Of a stretch of DNA of 34,777 nucleotides, positions 10,814 through 21,257 are shown piece by piece. Source of the stretch: Pedosphaera sp. (GTDB taxonomy: Bacteria > Verrucomicrobiota > Verrucomicrobiia > Limisphaerales > UBA1100); NCBI GenBank assembly GCA_009695465.1, contig SIAW01000018.1:1-34777 (forward strand), read 5' to 3'. The translations under genes and the position numbers were made by a program. Every line of letters begins with the position of its first letter. Position 1 is the stretch's first letter. The notes beneath the pieces were generated by a model. It ran no database searches. It had not been told where the DNA came from and worked only from the letters and a program-made list of their open reading frames with translations.

Positions 10814-12163
10814 ATGAGCAAACGGAGTGCGTTTCAGTGGTGCGGTGGAACGGATCATGCGGCCAATCCCAATCGCCGCGACTTCCTTTATGTGGGTGCG
10901 CTGGGCGGTTTGGGGCTGTCGCTGGGCGACATGTTCCGGCACGAGGCGCGCGCTGCGGGTGAGGATTGGAAGGACGTGGCCAAACCCAGCAAGGAGAACA
11001 AGGCCAAGAACGTGATCCAGATTTTCCTGCCCGGTGGCTCTGCCCATCAGGAGTCGTGGGATCCCAAGCATCTGGCACCGCAGGAATACCGCGGGCCGTT
11101 GGGCACGGTGGCCACGACCATCCCCGGTGAATATTTCTCCGAGAACATGAAGATGACGGCGAAGATCGCCAACAAGATCACCGTCATCCGCTCCATGACC
11201 CACGGCGAGGCGGCCCACGAGCGTGGCACGCACAACATGATGACGGGCGTGCGCCCCAGCCCGGCAGTGGTGTTCCCCAGCTTGGGCAGCATTGTCAGCC
11301 ACGAATTTGGTCCGCGCAAAAACCTGCCTCCGTACGTGGCCATTCCCTCCATGTTGGGCAATGGCGGCACGGGCTATCTGGGCAGCGCCTTCGGGCCGTT
11401 CAGCTTGGGTGCCGATCCGGGCAATGGCGGTTTCAAGGTGCGCGATTTGTCGTTGCCCACCGGCATCACCGACAAGCGATTTGACACGCGCAAGAGCATG
11501 CGCTCCGTGGTGGACTCGCACTTCAGCGCGTTGGAAAAGGCCGACACGCTGGCGGGCATGGACACCTTCTACGATCGCGCCTATTCGATGATCAGCTCCG
11601 CTGAGGCACGCGCCGCGTTTGATATTGATCAAGAGCCGGCTGCCTTGCGCGACGCGTACGGCCGCAACACGGCTGGTGGCCGTTTCCTGCTGGCTCGGCG
11701 TTTGGTGGAGGCGGGTGTGCGTTTTGTGTCCACCAGCTACGGCGGGTGGGATCACCACAGCAACATCCTTGGCGCCAATCATGGCCAGATGCCGGCGTTT
11801 GACCAAGCGTTCGCCGCATTGATCGCGGATCTGGACAGCCGCGGGTTGCTCGACAGCACGTTGGTGATGGTGACCAGCGAATTCGGGCGCACGCCCAAGA
11901 TCAACCGCGACGCGGGTCGTGATCACTGGCCGAAAGTTTTCAGCGTGGCGATGGCTGGCGGCGGTATGAAGCGCGGTTACATCCACGGTTCATCCGATCC
12001 GACAGGCTCGGAGCCGGACGAGAGCCCGGTGAGCGTGGAAGATTGGGCCGCGACGACGTATTCGTTGATCGGAATTGATCCGCTGCGCCGCCTGCTGGGG
12101 CCGGGCAATCGCCCCATGCCGATCAACTACGACGGCAATTTGTTGAAGGACGCGCTCGCCTAG
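10814..12163 (+). CDS. DUF1501 protein with Tat signal
   Basis: A 449-residue DUF1501 protein, a family related to alkaline phosphatase/sulfatase folds and very common in Planctomycetota and Verrucomicrobiota. The N-terminus carries a twin-arginine motif, NRRDFLYVGALGG at residues 20-32, implying folded export. Family marks follow: LPGGSAHQESWDPK, SMTHGEAAHERGTHNMMTG, SYGGWDHHSN, VTSEFGRTPKIN and GRDHWP. No enzyme activity has been firmly shown for the family as far as I know. It is the first gene of a four-gene plus-strand cluster whose partners are all exported. AGGA lies about ten bases before the ATG, a weak ribosome site. The 149-bp gap upstream (10665-10813) must hold its promoter, but I found no strong match. 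Confidence 0.93.
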   Translation: MSKRSAFQWCGGTDHAANPNRRDFLYVGALGGLGLSLGDMFRHEARAAGEDWKDVAKPSKENKAKNVIQIFLPGGSAHQESWDPKHLAPQEYRGPLGTVATTIPGEYFSENMKMTAKIANKITVIRSMTHGEAAHERGTHNMMTGVRPSPAVVFPSLGSIVSHEFGPRKNLPPYVAIPSMLGNGGTGYLGSAFGPFSLGADPGNGGFKVRDLSLPTGITDKRFDTRKSMRSVVDSHFSALEKADTLAGMDTFYDRAYSMISSAEARAAFDIDQEPAALRDAYGRNTAGGRFLLARRLVEAGVRFVSTSYGGWDHHSNILGANHGQMPAFDQAFAALIADLDSRGLLDSTLVMVTSEFGRTPKINRDAGRDHWPKVFSVAMAGGGMKRGYIHGSSDPTGSEPDESPVSVEDWAATTYSLIGIDPLRRLLGPGNRPMPINYDGNLLKDALA

Positions 12164-12277: not shown

Positions 12278-14680
12278 ATGAAGAGGGTAATTGCATTGTT
12301 GGGCACTTTGGGATGCGTGAGCTTGGCCTTGGCGGTGGATCCGCGCTTGGGTTCCATCTCGCCAGTGGGCGTTCAGGTTGGCGTGGAGGCCGTGCTGACC
12401 TTCAATGGCGCGCGGTTGGCCGATGCGCAGTCGCTCATTTTCTACAAGCCAGGCATTCAGGTCGTGGCGTTGGAAGAGGCGAAGGATAATTTTGTCCGCG
12501 CCAAGCTCAAAGTCGCCGCCGATTGTCCCTTGGGCGAACATCACGTGCGCGTACGCACGGCGGGTGGATTGACCGAGCTGCGCACGTTTTTCGTCGGGCC
12601 GTTCCCCATCGTCACCAAGGTGCCCGCCAAAATCGGCGAAGGCCCGCAAGTGCTGCCGATCAACTGCACGGTGATGGGTTCGGTGGCCAATGAAACGGTG
12701 GATCGCTATGTGGTGCAGGCCAAAAAAGGTCAGCGCCTCTCGGTGGAAGTGGAGAGCATGCGGCTGGGACAGGCGTTCTACGATCCCTACGTGGCCATCA
12801 TTGACACCAAAGGCTTCGTGCTGTCGCGCTCGGACGACACGCCGCTCTTCGTGCAGGATTGTTTCGCGTCGGCCACCATCCCGGAGGATGGCACCTACAC
12901 CGTGGAAGTGCGCGAGACCAGCTACCGCACCTTGGGCCTTTACCGGATGCACGTGGGCGCCTTCGCCCGGCCGACAGCAATTTATCCGGCAGGCGGACAG
13001 ACGGGGCAGGAGTTGATGGTGAAGTTCATCGACAAAGCCACGGGTGACTTTTCGCAGTCGGTCAAGTTGGTGGCACCGGACACCTGTCAGTTGACCGATG
13101 GCCGCATGGAACAGCCCGGCCTCAACGATCACGGCGTGTTTCCGGCGCGCGATGGCGTGGTGGCCCCGTCGTGGAACCGGGTGCGCATCTCCAATTATCC
13201 CAACGCGCTAGAACAGGAACCCAACGACAACGCGACCAATGCCACCGTGGTCTCGGGCGATCTGCCGATGGCGTTCAACGGCATCATCGAGAAGCCCGGC
13301 GATGTGGACTGGTTCACTTTCAAAGGCAAAGCCGGCCAGCAATATGACGTGCATGTGTACGCGCGGCGGTTGCGCTCAGGCTTGGACTCCGTGCTCGCGA
13401 TTGGCAACGCCGTCGGCGGGACCATCACCGGCAATGACGACTCCGGTGGGCCGGACAGCTACGTGCGTTTCGGCGTGCCGGCCGATGGCAATTACACGCT
13501 GCGCATCACCGATCACTTGGGCGGTGGCGGCCCGGATTTTGTGTACCGCGTGGAATTCCAGCCCGTGGTGGCGAACCTCTCGGTGTACGTGCCGGACACT
13601 TCGCTTTACGACACGCAGACGCGCAAGTCAGTGGTCGTCGCGCGCGGCAACCGTTTTCCGCTGGTCATCAATGCGCGCCGCAACAATTTTGGCGGCGAGC
13701 TAAAGCTGGCGATGAAAGATTTCCCGCCGGGCATCCAGTTGCACAGCGCGCCGATGGCCGCCAATCAAAGTGTGCTGACGATGGTGTTTGAGGCCGCGGC
13801 CGATGCGCCCCTCGGAGGCAACCTCGGCAATCTCATCGCCTCGCTGGTGCCGCCCACCAACGCCGCGCCCAACACGCCCATCATCACCGGCAACATCTGG
13901 CAGAATTTCGACCTCGTGCAGAGCGGCAATCAGGGCGTGTATTACCGCTCGTGGGCGGACAAGATTGCCGTGGTGGTGGTGGAAGAATTGCCGTTCAAGA
14001 TCCGCGTGGAGCCGATCCGCTCGCCGCTGGTCCGCAATGGCACGTTGCCAGTGAAGATCATCGCCGAGCGCACCGGCGATTTCACCGGCAACATCAACGT
14101 GCAGATGTTGACGCGGCCGCCGGGCTTGAATTGTCCCGCCTCGATTGACATCCCCGCAGGGCAAACTTCGGCCATCTACAATTTCAGCGCTGAGGGCGGC
14201 GCGGAGTTGAAGCTGCACCAGATCGCGCTGCTGGGATTGAGTTCCGTGAAGGCTGGCAACGCTTATGTCTCCACCCAATTGACCGGGCTGGACATCAAGG
14301 AACAATTTGTCGCCGGCAACATGCCCATCGCCACGACCATCCAAGGTTATCCCACCCAAGTGAAATGCGAGATCACGCAGAAGCTGGAATTCCCCGGCAA
14401 AGCCACCGTGGAGTTGCTGGGATTGCCCACCGGCGCGACGACGCACACGGTGGAGATGACCAAGGATTCCAAAGAGATCGTGTTCAACATCGTGACGGCG
14501 CCCGACGCCCGCGTGGGGTTGCATCGCTCGCTGCTGTGCCAGATGACGGTGAGCTACAACGACACGCAAGTGACGCAGACCTTTGGCGACCGCGGCACAC
14601 TGCGTGTTGACCCGCCGCCGGCCCCGCCGGTGCCGCGCAAACCCATCGAGACAGGCTTGGCCCCCAAGCCCGCCAACTAA
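12278..14680 (+). CDS. Exported PPC-domain protein of the DUF1501/DUF1549 cluster
   Basis: An 800-residue protein. Residues 1-19 (MKRVIALLGTLGCVSLALA) are a signal peptide. Next comes an IPT/TIG-like beta domain (about 20-110), then a beta-sandwich resembling a bacterial pre-peptidase C-terminal (PPC) domain at about 120-230. A second, clear PPC domain lies at about 310-430 (ALEQEPNDNATNATVV, then GDVDWFTFKGKAGQQYDVHV). Further Ig-like beta domains fill 440-780, and a Pro-rich tail (PPPAPPVPRKP) ends the protein. It has no peptidase domain, so it is probably structural or ligand-binding in the periplasm or on the surface. Genes of this architecture commonly neighbour DUF1501 and DUF1549/1553 genes in PVC bacteria, as here. 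No strong Shine-Dalgarno. Confidence 0.9.
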   Translation: MKRVIALLGTLGCVSLALAVDPRLGSISPVGVQVGVEAVLTFNGARLADAQSLIFYKPGIQVVALEEAKDNFVRAKLKVAADCPLGEHHVRVRTAGGLTELRTFFVGPFPIVTKVPAKIGEGPQVLPINCTVMGSVANETVDRYVVQAKKGQRLSVEVESMRLGQAFYDPYVAIIDTKGFVLSRSDDTPLFVQDCFASATIPEDGTYTVEVRETSYRTLGLYRMHVGAFARPTAIYPAGGQTGQELMVKFIDKATGDFSQSVKLVAPDTCQLTDGRMEQPGLNDHGVFPARDGVVAPSWNRVRISNYPNALEQEPNDNATNATVVSGDLPMAFNGIIEKPGDVDWFTFKGKAGQQYDVHVYARRLRSGLDSVLAIGNAVGGTITGNDDSGGPDSYVRFGVPADGNYTLRITDHLGGGGPDFVYRVEFQPVVANLSVYVPDTSLYDTQTRKSVVVARGNRFPLVINARRNNFGGELKLAMKDFPPGIQLHSAPMAANQSVLTMVFEAAADAPLGGNLGNLIASLVPPTNAAPNTPIITGNIWQNFDLVQSGNQGVYYRSWADKIAVVVVEELPFKIRVEPIRSPLVRNGTLPVKIIAERTGDFTGNINVQMLTRPPGLNCPASIDIPAGQTSAIYNFSAEGGAELKLHQIALLGLSSVKAGNAYVSTQLTGLDIKEQFVAGNMPIATTIQGYPTQVKCEITQKLEFPGKATVELLGLPTGATTHTVEMTKDSKEIVFNIVTAPDARVGLHRSLLCQMTVSYNDTQVTQTFGDRGTLRVDPPPAPPVPRKPIETGLAPKPAN

Positions 14681-14710: not shown

Positions 14711-17134
14711 ATGAAAAAATCGCTGATTGCCCTGCTGGCCCTCGCGCCACTGTGCCTCTTGGCCGCGCCTAAAACTTTGGTGGACGTGCAGGTGCATCCC
14801 AAGCAAGCCAACCTGTCAACCAGCCGCGACCGCCAGTTGCTGGTGGTGCAGGCCAAATACTCCGACAGCACCACGCAGGATGTCACGGCGCTGACGAAGT
14901 TCACGCTGGGCGACGCCAAGTTCGCGCGGTTGGAAGGCAGCACGCTGCGCCCGGTGGCCGACGGCGAGACCTCGCTCAAGGTGGAGTTTGAGGGCCGCAC
15001 CATGACCGTGCCGGTGAAGGTGGAGAAGGCGACGGAAGATCGCCCCATCAGTTTCAATCTGGATGTGATGCCCGTGTTCACCAAGGCTGGCTGCAATGCC
15101 GGCAGTTGCCACGGCTCCACGCGCGGCAAGGATGGGTTTCGGCTGTCGCTCTTTGGCTTCAATCCGGCGAGCGATTATTTCCAGATCACGCGCGAGAATT
15201 TTGGGCGGCGCATCAACACCGCGCTGCCGCACGACAGTTTGATGCTCGAAAAAGCCACGGGCCGCGTGACCCATACCGGCGGCAAATTGTTTGAGGCGGA
15301 AAACGGTCTCTACAAAACCATCGTGCGTTGGCTGGAGGCCGGTGCCCCCAAAGACCCGGATAATGTTGCCAAGGTGATTGATCTGGAGATTCGCCCGTTG
15401 CAGGCGGTGATGGAAGGCAAAGGCGTCAAGCAACAGCTTACGGTTCGGGCCATCTATTCCGACGGCACCGACCGCGACGTGACAGAGGAGACGCAGTACA
15501 TCTCCAACAACAGCATATCCGCCAAGGTGGAAGGGGCGGGAATTATCGTTTCCGGTGAACGCGGTGAGGCGTTCATCATGGCGCGGTACGACCAGTTCAT
15601 GGTGGGCACGCAGATTTTGGCCATTCCCAACGATCCCACCTACGCCTTCCCGGCGGAGTTGGAGGCCAACTACGTGGACACGTTGGTCCACAACAAGCAC
15701 AAGAAGATCCGCATCAAACCCAGCGGCCTGTGCGACGACAGCACGTTTGTCCGCCGCATCTATCTGGACATCGTGGGGCGGGTGCCGGACTCGGAAGTGG
15801 TGGAGAAATTTATCGCCGACAAGACCGCCGACAAGAGGGCCAAGCTGGTGGATGAACTGTTGGCGCGCCCAGAATTTGTGCGCATGTGGGTGATGAAATG
15901 GGCGGAACTGTTGCAGGTGCGCACGGACAACAACCAGTTTGAGTACAAGAACGCGGTGCTGTACTTTGAGTGGCTGCGCACCCAGTTCGAGGCCAACCGG
16001 CCGATGAACGAGATCGTACAGGATTTGCTGGGGGCCAAGGGCGGCACCTTCTCCAATCCCGCCGGCAACTTTTATCAGATTGAGCGCGACACGCTCAAGC
16101 TCACCGAGAACGCGGCGCAGATTTTCATGGGCATGCGCATCCAATGCGCGCAGTGCCACAACCATCCCTTCGATCGCTGGACGATGGACGACTATTATTC
16201 CTTCGCCAATTTCTTCTCGCAGGTCGGCCGCAAAGGCAGCGAGGACAACCGCGAAATCATCATCTACAACTCCGGCGGCGGCGGGGTCATCCATCCGGTG
16301 GGCAACCGCAACATGCCGCCGAAATTCTTGGGTGGCGTGGTGCCCGATGTGGCGGGCAAAGATCGCCGCGAGATTTTGGCCAAGTGGCTGGCGTCTTCCG
16401 ACAATCCGTTTTTTGCCAAGAACATGGCGAACATCGTCTGGGCACATTTCCTGGGCAAAGGCATCGTGGAACCGGTGGATGATGTGCGCATCAGCAACCC
16501 GCCCTCCAATCCGGAGTTGCTGGAGGAACTGGGCAAGCGCTTCCAGCAATCCAACTACAACTTCAAGCAGTTGGTGCGCGACATCTGCAACTCGCGCACG
16601 TATCAGCGTACCGTGCAGTCCAACCCGAGCAACGTGGAGGACGGCGCCAATTTCGCCAAGGCAGCGGTGCGGCGCATCCGTGCGGAGGTGTTGCTGGACG
16701 TGATCACGCAAGTGACCGACACCAAGAACAAATTCCCGGGGCTGCCGCTGGGTGCCAGTGCTGCGGAGATTGTGGATGGCCGCACCTCCACGTTCTTCCT
16801 CACCACCTTCGGCCGGGCCTCGCGCGACACGGTGTGCTCCTGCGAAGTGGCGCTGGAACCCAACCTCTCGCAGGCGTTGCATCTGCTCAACGGCGACACG
16901 GTGAACGACCGCTGCGTGCAGGGCGGCGTGGTGGCCAAGATGTTGGCGGCAAAGAAAACGCCCGAGGAAATTATTGACGCGATCTATCTGCGTTGTGTCG
17001 CGCGTCGTCCAGACGCGACTGAGAAGGCCAAACTCATGGCCTTCTTCGCTGAACCGGGACGCGCACAACAGGAGGTGTTGAACGACATCTTCTGGGCCGT
17101 GCTGAATTCCAAGGAATTCATTTTCAACCACTAG
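14711..17134 (+). CDS. Exported DUF1549/DUF1553 protein with Ig-like and cytochrome-like motifs
   Basis: An 807-residue protein. A signal peptide (MKKSLIALLALAPLCLLAA) is followed by a BIG2-like Ig domain (about 22-110), a segment with CNAGSCHG (Cys128, Cys133, His134), a second BIG2-like domain (about 215-305), DUF1549 (about 310-520) and DUF1553 (about 550-795). DUF1549 contains CAQCHNHPFDRW with the heme-type site Cys479-x-x-Cys482-His483; the first site has four residues between the cysteines instead of two. These families occur almost only in PVC and related bacteria, and their function is unknown; covalent heme and electron transfer in the periplasm are an inference from the motifs. It is third in the four-gene cluster, 30 bases after the PPC gene. 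Confidence 0.93.
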   Translation: MKKSLIALLALAPLCLLAAPKTLVDVQVHPKQANLSTSRDRQLLVVQAKYSDSTTQDVTALTKFTLGDAKFARLEGSTLRPVADGETSLKVEFEGRTMTVPVKVEKATEDRPISFNLDVMPVFTKAGCNAGSCHGSTRGKDGFRLSLFGFNPASDYFQITRENFGRRINTALPHDSLMLEKATGRVTHTGGKLFEAENGLYKTIVRWLEAGAPKDPDNVAKVIDLEIRPLQAVMEGKGVKQQLTVRAIYSDGTDRDVTEETQYISNNSISAKVEGAGIIVSGERGEAFIMARYDQFMVGTQILAIPNDPTYAFPAELEANYVDTLVHNKHKKIRIKPSGLCDDSTFVRRIYLDIVGRVPDSEVVEKFIADKTADKRAKLVDELLARPEFVRMWVMKWAELLQVRTDNNQFEYKNAVLYFEWLRTQFEANRPMNEIVQDLLGAKGGTFSNPAGNFYQIERDTLKLTENAAQIFMGMRIQCAQCHNHPFDRWTMDDYYSFANFFSQVGRKGSEDNREIIIYNSGGGGVIHPVGNRNMPPKFLGGVVPDVAGKDRREILAKWLASSDNPFFAKNMANIVWAHFLGKGIVEPVDDVRISNPPSNPELLEELGKRFQQSNYNFKQLVRDICNSRTYQRTVQSNPSNVEDGANFAKAAVRRIRAEVLLDVITQVTDTKNKFPGLPLGASAAEIVDGRTSTFFLTTFGRASRDTVCSCEVALEPNLSQALHLLNGDTVNDRCVQGGVVAKMLAAKKTPEEIIDAIYLRCVARRPDATEKAKLMAFFAEPGRAQQEVLNDIFWAVLNSKEFIFNH

Positions 17135-17144
17135 AAAACCGGGC

Positions 17145-17165
17145 GGCGCGCGGATACCGTGCGCC
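17145..17165 (+). repeat. GC-rich intergenic hairpin before the cytochrome/WD40/coiled-coil gene
   Basis: A 9-bp stem (17145-17153 with 17157-17165, one G-T wobble) with an ATA loop, in the 52-bp gap after the DUF1549/1553 stop. No T-run follows. It ends five bases before the strong ribosome-binding site of the next gene, so folding could affect translation start or protect the mRNA end. Confidence 0.65.
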
Positions 17166-17170
17166 AGCTT

Positions 17171-17180
17171 GGAGGGAGGA
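17171..17180 (+). promoter_or_regulatory. Ribosome-binding site that fixes the start at 17187
   Basis: GGAGGGAGGA lies six bases before ATG 17187, an unusually strong Shine-Dalgarno for this window. It rules out the upstream in-frame TTG at 17169, which would have this purine run inside the coding region. Confidence 0.8.
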
Positions 17181-17186
17181 CATCCG

Positions 17187-20100
17187 ATGAAACGGAAAGT
17201 TCAGTTGACCATGTTTGTGCTCGGTGCCCTGACGACCGCTGTGTTGTCGGCTGCCGACAAGGCGACCTTCGACGATCAGGTGTTGCCCATCTTCCGCAAC
17301 AAGTGCCTCAAGTGCCACAACCCGGACCGGATGAAGGCCGACTTGGATCTCTCCACGTTCGACGCCGCCATCAAGGGCAGCGGCAACGGCGCGGTGCTGG
17401 CCAGTGGCGACCCCAATGCGAGCAAGCTGCTCAAGGTCGTGACGCACGAGGAAAAGCCCACGATGCCGCCGGAGGACAAGTTGGCCGATGCGGACATCGC
17501 CCTCATCCGCCAGTGGATCATGGGCGGGTTGCTGCAGAATTCCGGCAGCAAAGCCATCGCGGCCAGCAAGCCCAAGGTCAATCTCGCCGTGAACCACAAT
17601 GCGACGGCCCGCCCGGATGGCCCGCCGCCGATGCCCAACGAGGTGTTCGCGCTGGACGCCTATGTGCGCACGACCAACACCAGCGTCTCCACCGCCATGG
17701 CGCACAACCCGTGGTCGCCGCTGGTGGCCATCGGCGGGCAGCGCCAGGTGTTGCTGTATAACACCGACACCCTGCGCGTGGCCGGCATCATCCCCTTCCC
17801 CGACGGCTATCCGCATTCCGTGCGCTTCAGCGCCAATGGCAAGCTGCTCATCATCGGCGGCGGGCGCGGCGCCAACAAAGGCATCTCCACCGTGTGGGAC
17901 ATCACGACGGGCCAGCAGGTGCTGACGGTCGGCGACGATCTGGACGCGGTACTTGCCACCGACATCTCGCCCAATCAACGCTTCATCGCCCACGGCGGGC
18001 CTGATCGCCTCGTGCGCATCTTCTCCACGGAGACCGGCGAGATGGTGCACAAGATCAAGAAACACACCGACTGGGTCACCTCCGTCCGCTTCAGCGTGGA
18101 TGGCAAACATCTGGCCACGGGCGATCGTTCCGGCGGTGTGCACGTGTGGGAAGCCGAGCCGGGCCTGATTGTCGGCAGTTTGATGGGCCACACCGACCGC
18201 ATCACGGGTCTGGAATGGGCCGCCACCAACGTCGTTGTGTCCGCGAGCATGGACAGCACCGTTCGACTTTGGAACACCGACAACGTCTCGCAGATCTCCA
18301 GTTGGAGCGCGCACGGCGGCGGCGCAATGTCGCTGGCGCGCACGCAGGCCGGCCAACTCGTCACCTCCGGCCGCAACAACCGCGCCACGCTGTGGGATCC
18401 CAACGGCGCGCGAGTCATGGATTTTGTGTACCCCGGCGATCTGCCCTCGCAAGCCGCACCCAGCTTCGATGGCAAACGTGTCGTCGGCAGTGATTGGAAC
18501 GGCAACGTGTACGTTTGGAATGCAGCGGACGGCAAGGATGCGGGCCGCATCGCGCTCAATCCCCTGCCCCAGGCCGATCAACATGTCGTCGCGCTCAAGG
18601 TGCAACAGGACAAGCAAACCGTTGTCGCCGCTGCGCAGGCCGTGGTGAAAACCGCGCAGGACCAGATCACTGCTGCGCAGGCCAAGATTGTTGCGCTGGA
18701 CGCCGCTGCCGCTGTGCAACTGAAAGCCGCTGCCGATGCCAAGGTCAATCTGGACAAACTGATCGCTGTCAAACAGAAGCCCGCGCAAGACAAAGTGGCC
18801 GCCACCACGAAGGCCGTCACAGATACGCAGGCTGCCAAGACCGCTGCGGATCTGGCGTTGACCGCTGCGAACGCCGAAGTGCAAACCGCCACGCAAGCGC
18901 ATCAAGCCGCTGTGGTGGCTGCTGATGCCGCCGCCAAACTTTCGGCGGAGGCGCAGAACAACGCCGCCAAGTCTGCCGAAGAAAAACAGAAACTTGCCGC
19001 CGATGCTGTCGCCAAGAAATTGGCCGCCGACACCGCCAAGGCCAACCTCGACAAGCTCATTGCCGCGAAGCAAAAGCCCGCGCAGGAAAAAGCCGTTGCC
19101 GACGCCAAAGCGCTCACCGATTCGCAGACTGCCAAGGTCGAGGCCGACAAAGCGATCGTCGCTGCCAATGCCGAAGTGCTGGCCGCCGATGTCGCCACGA
19201 AGGCCGCTCAAAAAGCGATGACCGACGCGCAGCAAGCCGCGCTGACCGGCAAGCCGCCGATGCAGCAGCAGGCCGACGCGATCACCAAGCAGATGCCCGA
19301 TCTGCAAGCCAAGCTCGCTGCCGCCAATGCTGACTTCGCCACGGCTCAGCAAGATGCGGTTGCCTTTGAACTGGGCAAGACGTTCAGCCAATATTTTTCA
19401 CTGCGCAACGGGCTTGATGAGCAGAAGGAAAAGAACGACCAGATGCAGGCCGCTGCCAAGGCTGCTCAAGCTGCGTTAAAAGCCGCGCAGGACGCCCTCG
19501 TCGTCGCGGGCAAAGTGGATGTCAACGCCGTCAAGGCGCAGCGTCAGGACGCCATCAAACAGGCGCAGGCCCAGCAGACCGGTGCCGAGCAATTGCTGGC
19601 CACGGCTGTGGTTGAGGTGGCCAAGGCCAACACCGCCATCACCGTCGCTGGCAAGACGATGACCGATGCGGAGGCCGCCCACAAAATCGCGCTGACCAAC
19701 GTGGAGACTGCGAAGGCTGAACTGGCCAAGGTCGTTGCCGCCGCCAAGTTGGTTCGCGACAAGGCCAATGTTGAGAAGGCCGCCTACGACAAATTGGTAG
19801 GCGAGAAGCAAGTGCCCATCGTTGCGGTGTTGGATGCCGCCACAAAGGCGTTGGCCCACGCCGCCGCCGCAAAAGCCAACGTGGACAAGGCCCTCACCAT
19901 GCTCAACGCCGAGGTGAACGCAGCCACGGTCGCTTTCCAAAATGCCGACAAAGCTGCGGTGGCTGCTGAAGCCGCCGTGACCGCCGCGAAGGTCGCCGCT
20001 GAAAAATCCATCGTTGATCTCACCGCGAATCTGGCCAAGGCCAAGGTTGATTTGGCGACCAAGCAACAGGCCGCCAACGCCGACAAGGCGCTCTTGGACA

Positions 20101-21257
20101 AATTGATCAACGAGAAACTCAAGCCCGCAGAAGGGGCCTTTGCTGCCGCTGACAAGACGTTTGCCCAAGCGCCCATCGACAAGGCCAACGCCGACAAGAA
20201 TCAGGGCGTGATCAATGCCGAGGTCAAGAATGCGTTGACCACGTTTCATGCTGCCGAGATGGCGGCCCAAGCTGCGGAGATCGCTGCTGCGGGTGCAACC
20301 GTGGAGGCCGAACGCGTCAAGCTGATGGCCGATGCGGTGGCAAAACGCCAAGTGGCGGATGCCTCAAAAACTGCGCTCGATAAGTTGGTGGCGGAAAAAC
20401 AAAAGCCCACGCTGGCCGAGGTGTTGCGTGCAAATCAAGTGAGCACCGTCGCGCCCGCCGCTCGTGCCGCGACCGCGCAGGTATTGGACGTCACCAAAGC
20501 TGAAGTAGCCAAAGCCACTGCGGCATTCCTTGCGAGCCAGCAAGCCGCTGCGGCTGCCGCCCAGCAGGTGGACATTGCTCAGGCCGCGTTGGCCAAGGCC
20601 ACAGGCGACTGGGCTGCGCAGCAGGCCGGTGCTGCAAATCAGCGACTGACGTCAAACACCGCCAAGGTGCTGCTCGACAAATGGGTGGCGGGTCAGCAGC
20701 CGTCCATCGCCGCCGCCGCCGCTGCGGCTGCCGCCACGAATGAGATCACCGCTGCCAAGGCTTCCGGCGACAAGGTGCTGGCTCGCGTGAATCTTGAGTT
20801 GGCTGAGGCCATCAAGCCTTTCCAAGCAGCCGATCAAGTTGCCAAGACCGCCGAGGCCGCGATTCCGTTGGCCGAAGCCAGCGTGACCAAGATGGTCGCG
20901 ACTGCCGATGCCGCCAAAGCCGCCACGGCGAAGGCGCAGCAGGATGTCGCCAATGCAAAAGTCGCGATGACCAAGATGACCGATGAAAAACAAACTCCAG
21001 CCGAGGCGCAGGTAGCGGCGATGAAGCAGACGGTTGCCGCTGCGCAGCTCTCGCATCAAAACACCGAGGTTGACCACGCAAAAAATCTTGCGGCACTCAC
21101 CGAGGCGGCGAAGGCCGAGGCGACCGCAGCGCAGGAGAAAACGACCGCCGCAGGCAAGCTGGCTTTGGATCTGGCCGCGCTCCAAAAGCGATTGGACGAG
21201 ATCAAGGCGGCTTACGACAAGCTCAAGACAGCGACGAAGACGGCTTCAACAAAGTAA
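17187..21257 (+). CDS. Exported cytochrome c/WD40 protein with a giant Ala-rich coiled coil
   Basis: A 1356-residue protein. A signal peptide (residues 1-22) precedes a planctomycete-type cytochrome c domain (PSCyt1, about 25-118) with heme site CLKCH at 40-44. Residues about 155-458 form a WD40 propeller; HTDWVTSVRFSVDGKHLATG, GHTDRITGLEWA, VRLWNT and VYVWNAADG mark blades. From about residue 465 to the end the protein is almost pure helix, rich in Ala, Lys, Gln, Asp and Glu, built from a degenerate repeat of about 99 residues (listed separately). PSCyt1-WD40 proteins are known in PVC bacteria; a coil this long is unusual to my knowledge. It closes the four-gene cluster and should lie in the periplasm, where the coil could act as a spacer or bundle. 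The stop is one base from the convergent lysA stop, with no terminator. Confidence 0.93.
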   Translation: MKRKVQLTMFVLGALTTAVLSAADKATFDDQVLPIFRNKCLKCHNPDRMKADLDLSTFDAAIKGSGNGAVLASGDPNASKLLKVVTHEEKPTMPPEDKLADADIALIRQWIMGGLLQNSGSKAIAASKPKVNLAVNHNATARPDGPPPMPNEVFALDAYVRTTNTSVSTAMAHNPWSPLVAIGGQRQVLLYNTDTLRVAGIIPFPDGYPHSVRFSANGKLLIIGGGRGANKGISTVWDITTGQQVLTVGDDLDAVLATDISPNQRFIAHGGPDRLVRIFSTETGEMVHKIKKHTDWVTSVRFSVDGKHLATGDRSGGVHVWEAEPGLIVGSLMGHTDRITGLEWAATNVVVSASMDSTVRLWNTDNVSQISSWSAHGGGAMSLARTQAGQLVTSGRNNRATLWDPNGARVMDFVYPGDLPSQAAPSFDGKRVVGSDWNGNVYVWNAADGKDAGRIALNPLPQADQHVVALKVQQDKQTVVAAAQAVVKTAQDQITAAQAKIVALDAAAAVQLKAAADAKVNLDKLIAVKQKPAQDKVAATTKAVTDTQAAKTAADLALTAANAEVQTATQAHQAAVVAADAAAKLSAEAQNNAAKSAEEKQKLAADAVAKKLAADTAKANLDKLIAAKQKPAQEKAVADAKALTDSQTAKVEADKAIVAANAEVLAADVATKAAQKAMTDAQQAALTGKPPMQQQADAITKQMPDLQAKLAAANADFATAQQDAVAFELGKTFSQYFSLRNGLDEQKEKNDQMQAAAKAAQAALKAAQDALVVAGKVDVNAVKAQRQDAIKQAQAQQTGAEQLLATAVVEVAKANTAITVAGKTMTDAEAAHKIALTNVETAKAELAKVVAAAKLVRDKANVEKAAYDKLVGEKQVPIVAVLDAATKALAHAAAAKANVDKALTMLNAEVNAATVAFQNADKAAVAAEAAVTAAKVAAEKSIVDLTANLAKAKVDLATKQQAANADKALLDKLINEKLKPAEGAFAAADKTFAQAPIDKANADKNQGVINAEVKNALTTFHAAEMAAQAAEIAAAGATVEAERVKLMADAVAKRQVADASKTALDKLVAEKQKPTLAEVLRANQVSTVAPAARAATAQVLDVTKAEVAKATAAFLASQQAAAAAAQQVDIAQAALAKATGDWAAQQAGAANQRLTSNTAKVLLDKWVAGQQPSIAAAAAAAAATNEITAAKASGDKVLARVNLELAEAIKPFQAADQVAKTAEAAIPLAEASVTKMVATADAAKAATAKAQQDVANAKVAMTKMTDEKQTPAEAQVAAMKQTVAAAQLSHQNTEVDHAKNLAALTEAAKAEATAAQEKTTAAGKLALDLAALQKRLDEIKAAYDKLKTATKTASTK
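18729..21071 (+). repeat. About 99-residue degenerate tandem repeat in the coiled coil
   Basis: Seven copies of a unit with Leu-Asp-Lys-Leu, then Lys-Gln-Lys-Pro, then Asn-Ala-Glu-Val. Counting from ATG 17187, the prolines are at residues 532, 631, 877, 980, 1074, 1172 and 1271, and the Asn (or equivalent) of the second motif at 562, 661, 907, 1010, 1104, 1202 and 1292. The Pro-to-Asn distance is exactly 30 in the first six copies and 21 in the seventh. Unit spacing is 94-103 except for one interval of 246, which holds a less regular segment around residues 684-860 including FELGKTFSQYFSLRNGLDEQ. A run of nine Ala (codons near 20709-20735) lies in the sixth copy. The constant spacing points to duplication, not mere composition. 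Confidence 0.8.

Follow-up and report, generated by a model that had tools for sequence, protein, structure and literature searches.

An Ala-rich coil of 99-residue units behind the heme and WD40 head of a verrucomicrobial PSCyt1 protein

The window, that is, the whole stretch of 34,777 nucleotides analysed here, carries a PSCyt/PSD operon in which the genes for DUF1501, PSCyt2/PSD1 and PSCyt1 proteins stand side by side. The genes of the operon and the two head domains encoded by the last of them are as follows:

10814–12163, + strand: DUF1501 protein, operon gene 1 (Pfam, E 3e-104; synteny)
12278–14680, + strand: PPC-domain protein, operon gene 2, without the coil unit (Pfam; synteny)
14711–17134, + strand: PSCyt2 and PSD1 protein, operon gene 3, without the coil insert (Pfam; synteny)
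17187–21257, + strand: PSCyt1-WD40-coil protein, 1356 aa, ATG start at 17187
17304–17477, + strand: PSCyt1 planctomycete cytochrome c domain, residues 40–97 (Pfam PF07635)
17694–18536, + strand: WD40 beta-propeller, residues ~170–450 (Pfam PF00400, propeller models, AlphaFold strands)

As judged by eye, residues 1–22 of the PSCyt1-WD40-coil protein form an apparent signal peptide. The PSCyt1 domain is identified by a PF07635 score of 52.3 bits against a cut-off of 22, and the heme motif CLKCH is located at residues 40–44. The WD40 propeller is identified by a PF00400 score of 73.5 bits against a cut-off of 27 and by the strands in the AlphaFold model. The tail gave no match in sequence searches of Pfam, NCBIfam and the PDB. 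Opposite the coil gene lies an antisense open frame of 755 aa (17124–19391, − strand), which is probably a by-product of codon composition or bias.

The tail contains seven units of about 99 residues, each identified below by its repeat proline, and a degenerate unit within the longest interval:

18654–18932, + strand: coil unit 1, Pro532 (unit HMM E 1.3e-18; leave-one-out)
18951–19232, + strand: coil unit 2, Pro631 (unit HMM; leave-one-out)
19422–19673, + strand: degenerate coil unit, residues 746–829 (E 0.029)
19689–19970, + strand: coil unit 3, Pro877 (E 3.6e-22; leave-one-out)
19998–20279, + strand: coil unit 4, Pro980 (E 8.6e-26; leave-one-out)
20292–20558, + strand: coil unit 5, Pro1074 (E 2.6e-17)
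20577–20855, + strand: coil unit 6, Pro1172 (E 1.5e-20), without a skip residue
20871–21149, + strand: coil unit 7, Pro1271 (E 2.9e-13; leave-one-out)

The prolines at residues 532, 631, 877, 980, 1074, 1172 and 1271 are separated by 99, 246, 103, 94, 98 and 99 residues, which is exactly the period of 94–103 with a single interval of 246 given in an earlier note on this DNA. The motifs that the note had assigned to all seven units are less uniform. LDKL is exact in four units and replaced by YDKL, LDKW or MTKM in the others; KQKP is exact in three, the others having KQVP, KLKP, GQQP and KQTP; and Asn is found exactly 30 residues past the proline in five units, not in six as claimed, this place being Lys in unit 5 (KAEV, Pro1074) and Leu in unit 7 (Pro1271).

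The repeat was compared with shuffled sequences. The identity autocorrelation has its maximum at a lag of 99, where the value reaches 0.222, compared to 0.195 for the highest of 200 shuffles, and the best 45-residue ungapped self-match scores 150, compared to a shuffle maximum of 75. Leave-one-out HMMs gave 49–100 bits for the held-out units against shuffle maxima of 29–49, and none of 500 shuffles reached the held-out unit for any of the seven. These results confirm that the repeat of seven units of about 99 residues is real and that the tail, as had been claimed, is not just low-complexity Ala/Lys sequence. Taken with the Pfam domains, they bear out the description of a repeated helical spacer joined to a heme (PSCyt1) and WD40 head. 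In the window, the degenerate unit is recognised only weakly (E 0.029), whereas four orthologues show it more clearly (E about 0.0007–0.0012); it splits the interval of 246 residues into about 147 + 99. The alignment columns separating units 1 and 2 are occupied only in the window and in its genus mate G001.

The register of the coil was analysed over 88 units from the window protein and its orthologues. Hydrophobic residues peak at positions −45, −38, −31, −24, −17 and −10 before the proline and at 5, 12, 26, 33 and 40 after it, while position 19 is usually Lys. The hydrophobic period is 3.50–3.52 on either side of the proline, and one heptad phase stands out with hydrophobic fractions of 0.50 and 0.49. 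This phase is 4 before the proline and 5 after it (permutation p ~3e-4 and 1e-4), a shift of one residue, and the next unit starts in an unchanged register, in agreement with 99 = 14 × 7 + 1. The extra residue falls at the Lys-Gln-Lys-Pro site, as in a heptad coil with a skip residue; the unit of Pro1172 does not have it, and the interval there is 98. The positions a are occupied by large hydrophobic residues and the positions d mostly by Ala, which accounts for 41% of d before the proline and 61% after it. The tail is an Ala-rich coil of 99-residue units, each consisting of 14 heptads and one skip residue. The nine hendecads proposed in the earlier note do not fit this register, since a hendecad coiled coil (11 residues, period 3.67) is ruled out by the phase counts, in which no hendecad phase is dominant among the 88 units. 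The spectrum of the whole tail shows a peak at 3.93, which probably reflects the 99-residue period.

AlphaFold models were obtained for residues 157–1356 of the window protein (pLDDT 70, pTM 0.36) and for the tail of an orthologue (pLDDT 79, pTM 0.30). Both are based on shallow alignments of 13–14 sequences, so that confidence is limited and the topology and packing are left unfixed. The predicted helices are ~96–240 residues long in the two models. In the window model, the helix is continuous through six of the seven prolines and is interrupted at residues 592–596 and 776–794 and at a conserved Gly turn at 1036–1039, which precedes unit 5, and again within the last 150 residues, where confidence is low; in the orthologue model, a break lies beside one proline only. 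A Foldseek search with the tail returned only generic long coils (MukB, PrgA and SMC proteins) with TM below 0.2.

These models bear on the proposal that helices ending at each proline form rigid rods of ~14 nm, or spectrin-like bundles, arranged in series as a spacer. The regular unit length and the retention of the proline in 68 of 94 aligned units are what such rods would lead one to expect. However, the helix passes nearly all prolines in the two shallow models, save one or two, and the heptad register is maintained across the proline with a one-residue skip. A spectrin repeat, with its three-helix pattern of ~106 residues, was also considered as a candidate and rejected, because no Pfam family was matched at E ≤ 10, no PDB sequence was matched and the helix is continuous in the models. 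The note had named models with no break or turn near the prolines as a refutation, and by this standard the two models, shallow as they are, speak against it. Breaks at each proline and spectrin-like folding, both suggested previously, are thus not supported, and we consider the rod arrangement very unlikely.

In each of the 11 family loci whose stretch reaches the DUF1501 gene, the genes follow the sequence DUF1501, PPC, PSCyt2/PSD1 and PSCyt1-WD40, and a convergent lysA comes next after the operon. Four further families of the taxonomic order share this arrangement, but their tail has 160–215 residues and no units. The homology of the window protein to these short tails is confined to two pieces:

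19272–19547, + strand: probably older, putative hairpin core outside the unit pattern, residues ~696–787, common to short-tailed relatives
21057–21254, + strand: C-terminal end piece (Tyr-Asp-Lys-Leu-Lys...), common to short-tailed relatives

The core matches the tails of G002 and G044 (blastp E 8.9e-6 and 1.6e-4), and the end piece matches those of G002 (E 2.7e-7) and G021 (E 1e-4). The G002 protein is intermediate: it is 992 aa long, and two units can be recognised in it. The orthologues within the family have 1142–1356 aa and differ by whole units or deletions; the length of the tail has changed within the family by gain and loss of units. Because the short tail is more widely distributed, it would be the older state, and the change probably ran from short to long. 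The ratio dN/dS is 0.18–0.26 in the tail and 0.15 in the head, rough values given that synonymous sites are near saturation, and the tail is under purifying selection.

The repeat is family-wide, as the unit is recognised both in the orthologues and in other envelope proteins of the family. In the window's own genome, it is found in a two-propeller PSCyt1-WD40-coil-WD40 paralogue (contig C18 and probably C54) and in a PA14 protein of 1229 aa (contig C20, L112:2101-5787), which has four unit matches ~100 residues apart. The ends of contigs C18 (L059) and C54 (L113) appear to overlap inside the gene of the two-propeller paralogue. Within the family, PPC proteins, a PSCyt2/PSD1 protein and a small protein called Spy-like by eye, which matches no Pfam family, also carry the unit. 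Every unit-bearing segment tested in other proteins exceeds its own shuffles (0/1000 each). In a phylum sample of 289 genomes searched at E ≤ 1e-6, only the window's genome and one distant Verrucomicrobiota genome have matches, the latter in a coil-PSCyt2-PSD1 protein of 2025 aa; a scan of a viral collection for the repeat found nothing. In G272, a protein at L188:3261-6455 is built differently: WD40 is followed by a long coil that is rich in Ala and does not contain the unit, then by apparent membrane helices and a C-terminal heme motif.

Several of these sites are filled in some genomes and empty in others. The PSD1 protein has a coil insert of ~75 aa in G013, G005 and G011, as does a 117-aa fragment at a contig end in G003, while five relatives with similar flanks do not have it. 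The PPC inserts are 89, 103, 201, 220 and 399 residues long in different genomes, in steps of about one or two units. The Spy-like protein contains ~100 coil residues in G007 and none in G009, with flanks 83–90% identical, and the copy with the insert in G013 (L181:3873-5039) is frame-broken relative to the intact G007 gene. When the G007 insert is compared with a PPC unit of G013, identical residues have identical codons in 25 of 34 cases, where 14.4 are expected. This excess of shared synonymous codons shows copying of DNA rather than convergence, so that the unit has been copied between genes at the DNA level, at least sometimes. Inverted repeats of at least 12 bases numbered zero in the two stretches tested, which do not have the form of a palindromic in-frame insertion element.

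Such a distribution might be expected of a largely neutral, selfish in-frame repeat, which would spread because envelope proteins tolerate a helix rich in Ala and Lys and which would have no specific role. The presence and absence of the unit among relatives, even in the unrelated Spy-like gene, and the frame-broken copy in G013 are consistent with it, as is G009, a genome of the same family (93% complete) that yielded neither a coil unit nor, at E ≤ 1e-30, an orthologue of the head. Against this stand the dN/dS of the tail, the five C-terminal units, which are collinear in most orthologues, and the fact that most copies reside in PSCyt, PPC and WD40 proteins, including the distant PSCyt2/PSD1 protein. 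A repeat of this kind is in our view unlikely to explain the coil, although the spread of similar coils in itself could be neutral.

The reading to which we give an even chance is that the coil is a reusable Ala-rich antiparallel module, which has grown by units and serves as a spacer and docking part in the periplasm. An ancestral operon protein would have had a short helical tail of 160–215 residues. Within a single marine family of Verrucomicrobiales, both halves of this tail would then have received units, which multiplied to ~900 residues; the unit would also have been copied into other envelope proteins, at least sometimes at the DNA level. An insertion inside a folded domain would force the coil to double back as a hairpin. 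Since inserts within a domain must return to their start and Ala predominates at d, we infer that the coil packs as antiparallel hairpins.

A plain parallel dimeric stalk, which would keep the heme-propeller head off the membrane or surface and make no contact with the operon proteins, is decidedly unlikely in comparison. A long heptad coil behind a head would suit it, and the generic long coils returned by Foldseek, at their low TM, are of this type. However, the inserts within the PSD1 and PPC domains have to double back, the Ala-rich d positions favour antiparallel packing according to the register counts and what is known of such coils, and no C-terminal anchor of the window protein was seen by eye.

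With the antiparallel module, the most likely role is that of a periplasmic spacer and docking element: the coil would hold the heme-propeller head at a distance, and like coils would bring the proteins of the operon together. The WD40 domain on PSCyt genes has been classed as a protein-protein interaction domain, and the role of the PSCyt genes is given as unknown (He et al. 2017, PMC5615132). In the window, neither the PPC protein nor the PSCyt2/PSD1 protein has a unit, so that docking by like coils is not general in this copy of the operon and would be limited to other copies or to self-contact. A further step seems to us somewhat unlikely, namely that unit DNA passes in frame from one unrelated envelope gene to another and multiplies in tandem, and that the like coils form a common docking code by which the members of the PSCyt1/PSCyt2/PPC system come together in the periplasm. 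The shared coil unit, absent at matching sites in relatives, provides a handle on the question whether PSCyt/PSD/DUF1501 proteins assemble, and in what way. It is moreover a bacterial case of a coil-coding sequence that has been copied in frame and has grown in tandem, which the filled and empty sites permit to be tested.

Planctomycetes and Verrucomicrobia are rich in PSCyt, PSD and DUF1501 proteins, and the window's operon resembles the planctomycete-type operons in domains and gene order. Whereas its PSCyt1-WD40 relatives from other families end in 160–215 residues without units, the window protein has ~900 residues of units. The PrgA stalk and the SMC and MukB coils, the top Foldseek matches, are similar as long coils and have no sequence relation. 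In the myosin rod, a heptad coil has one extra (skip) residue at regular intervals. The window coil is likewise interrupted regularly by one residue; however, its skip falls at Lys-Gln-Lys-Pro every 99 residues, and the coil is bacterial, periplasmic and probably antiparallel. In the Alacoil, an antiparallel pair of helices has Ala at one core position per heptad. In the window coil, too, Ala is frequent at a single position of the core (d, with 0.41 and 0.61), although this coil is much longer and its antiparallel packing is a prediction. Rickettsia palindromic elements are inserted in-frame in genes, and they resemble the coil unit as repeat DNA in unrelated genes with empty sites. In contrast to them, the coil unit showed no inverted repeats in the two stretches tested, encodes a selected coil and multiplies in tandem.
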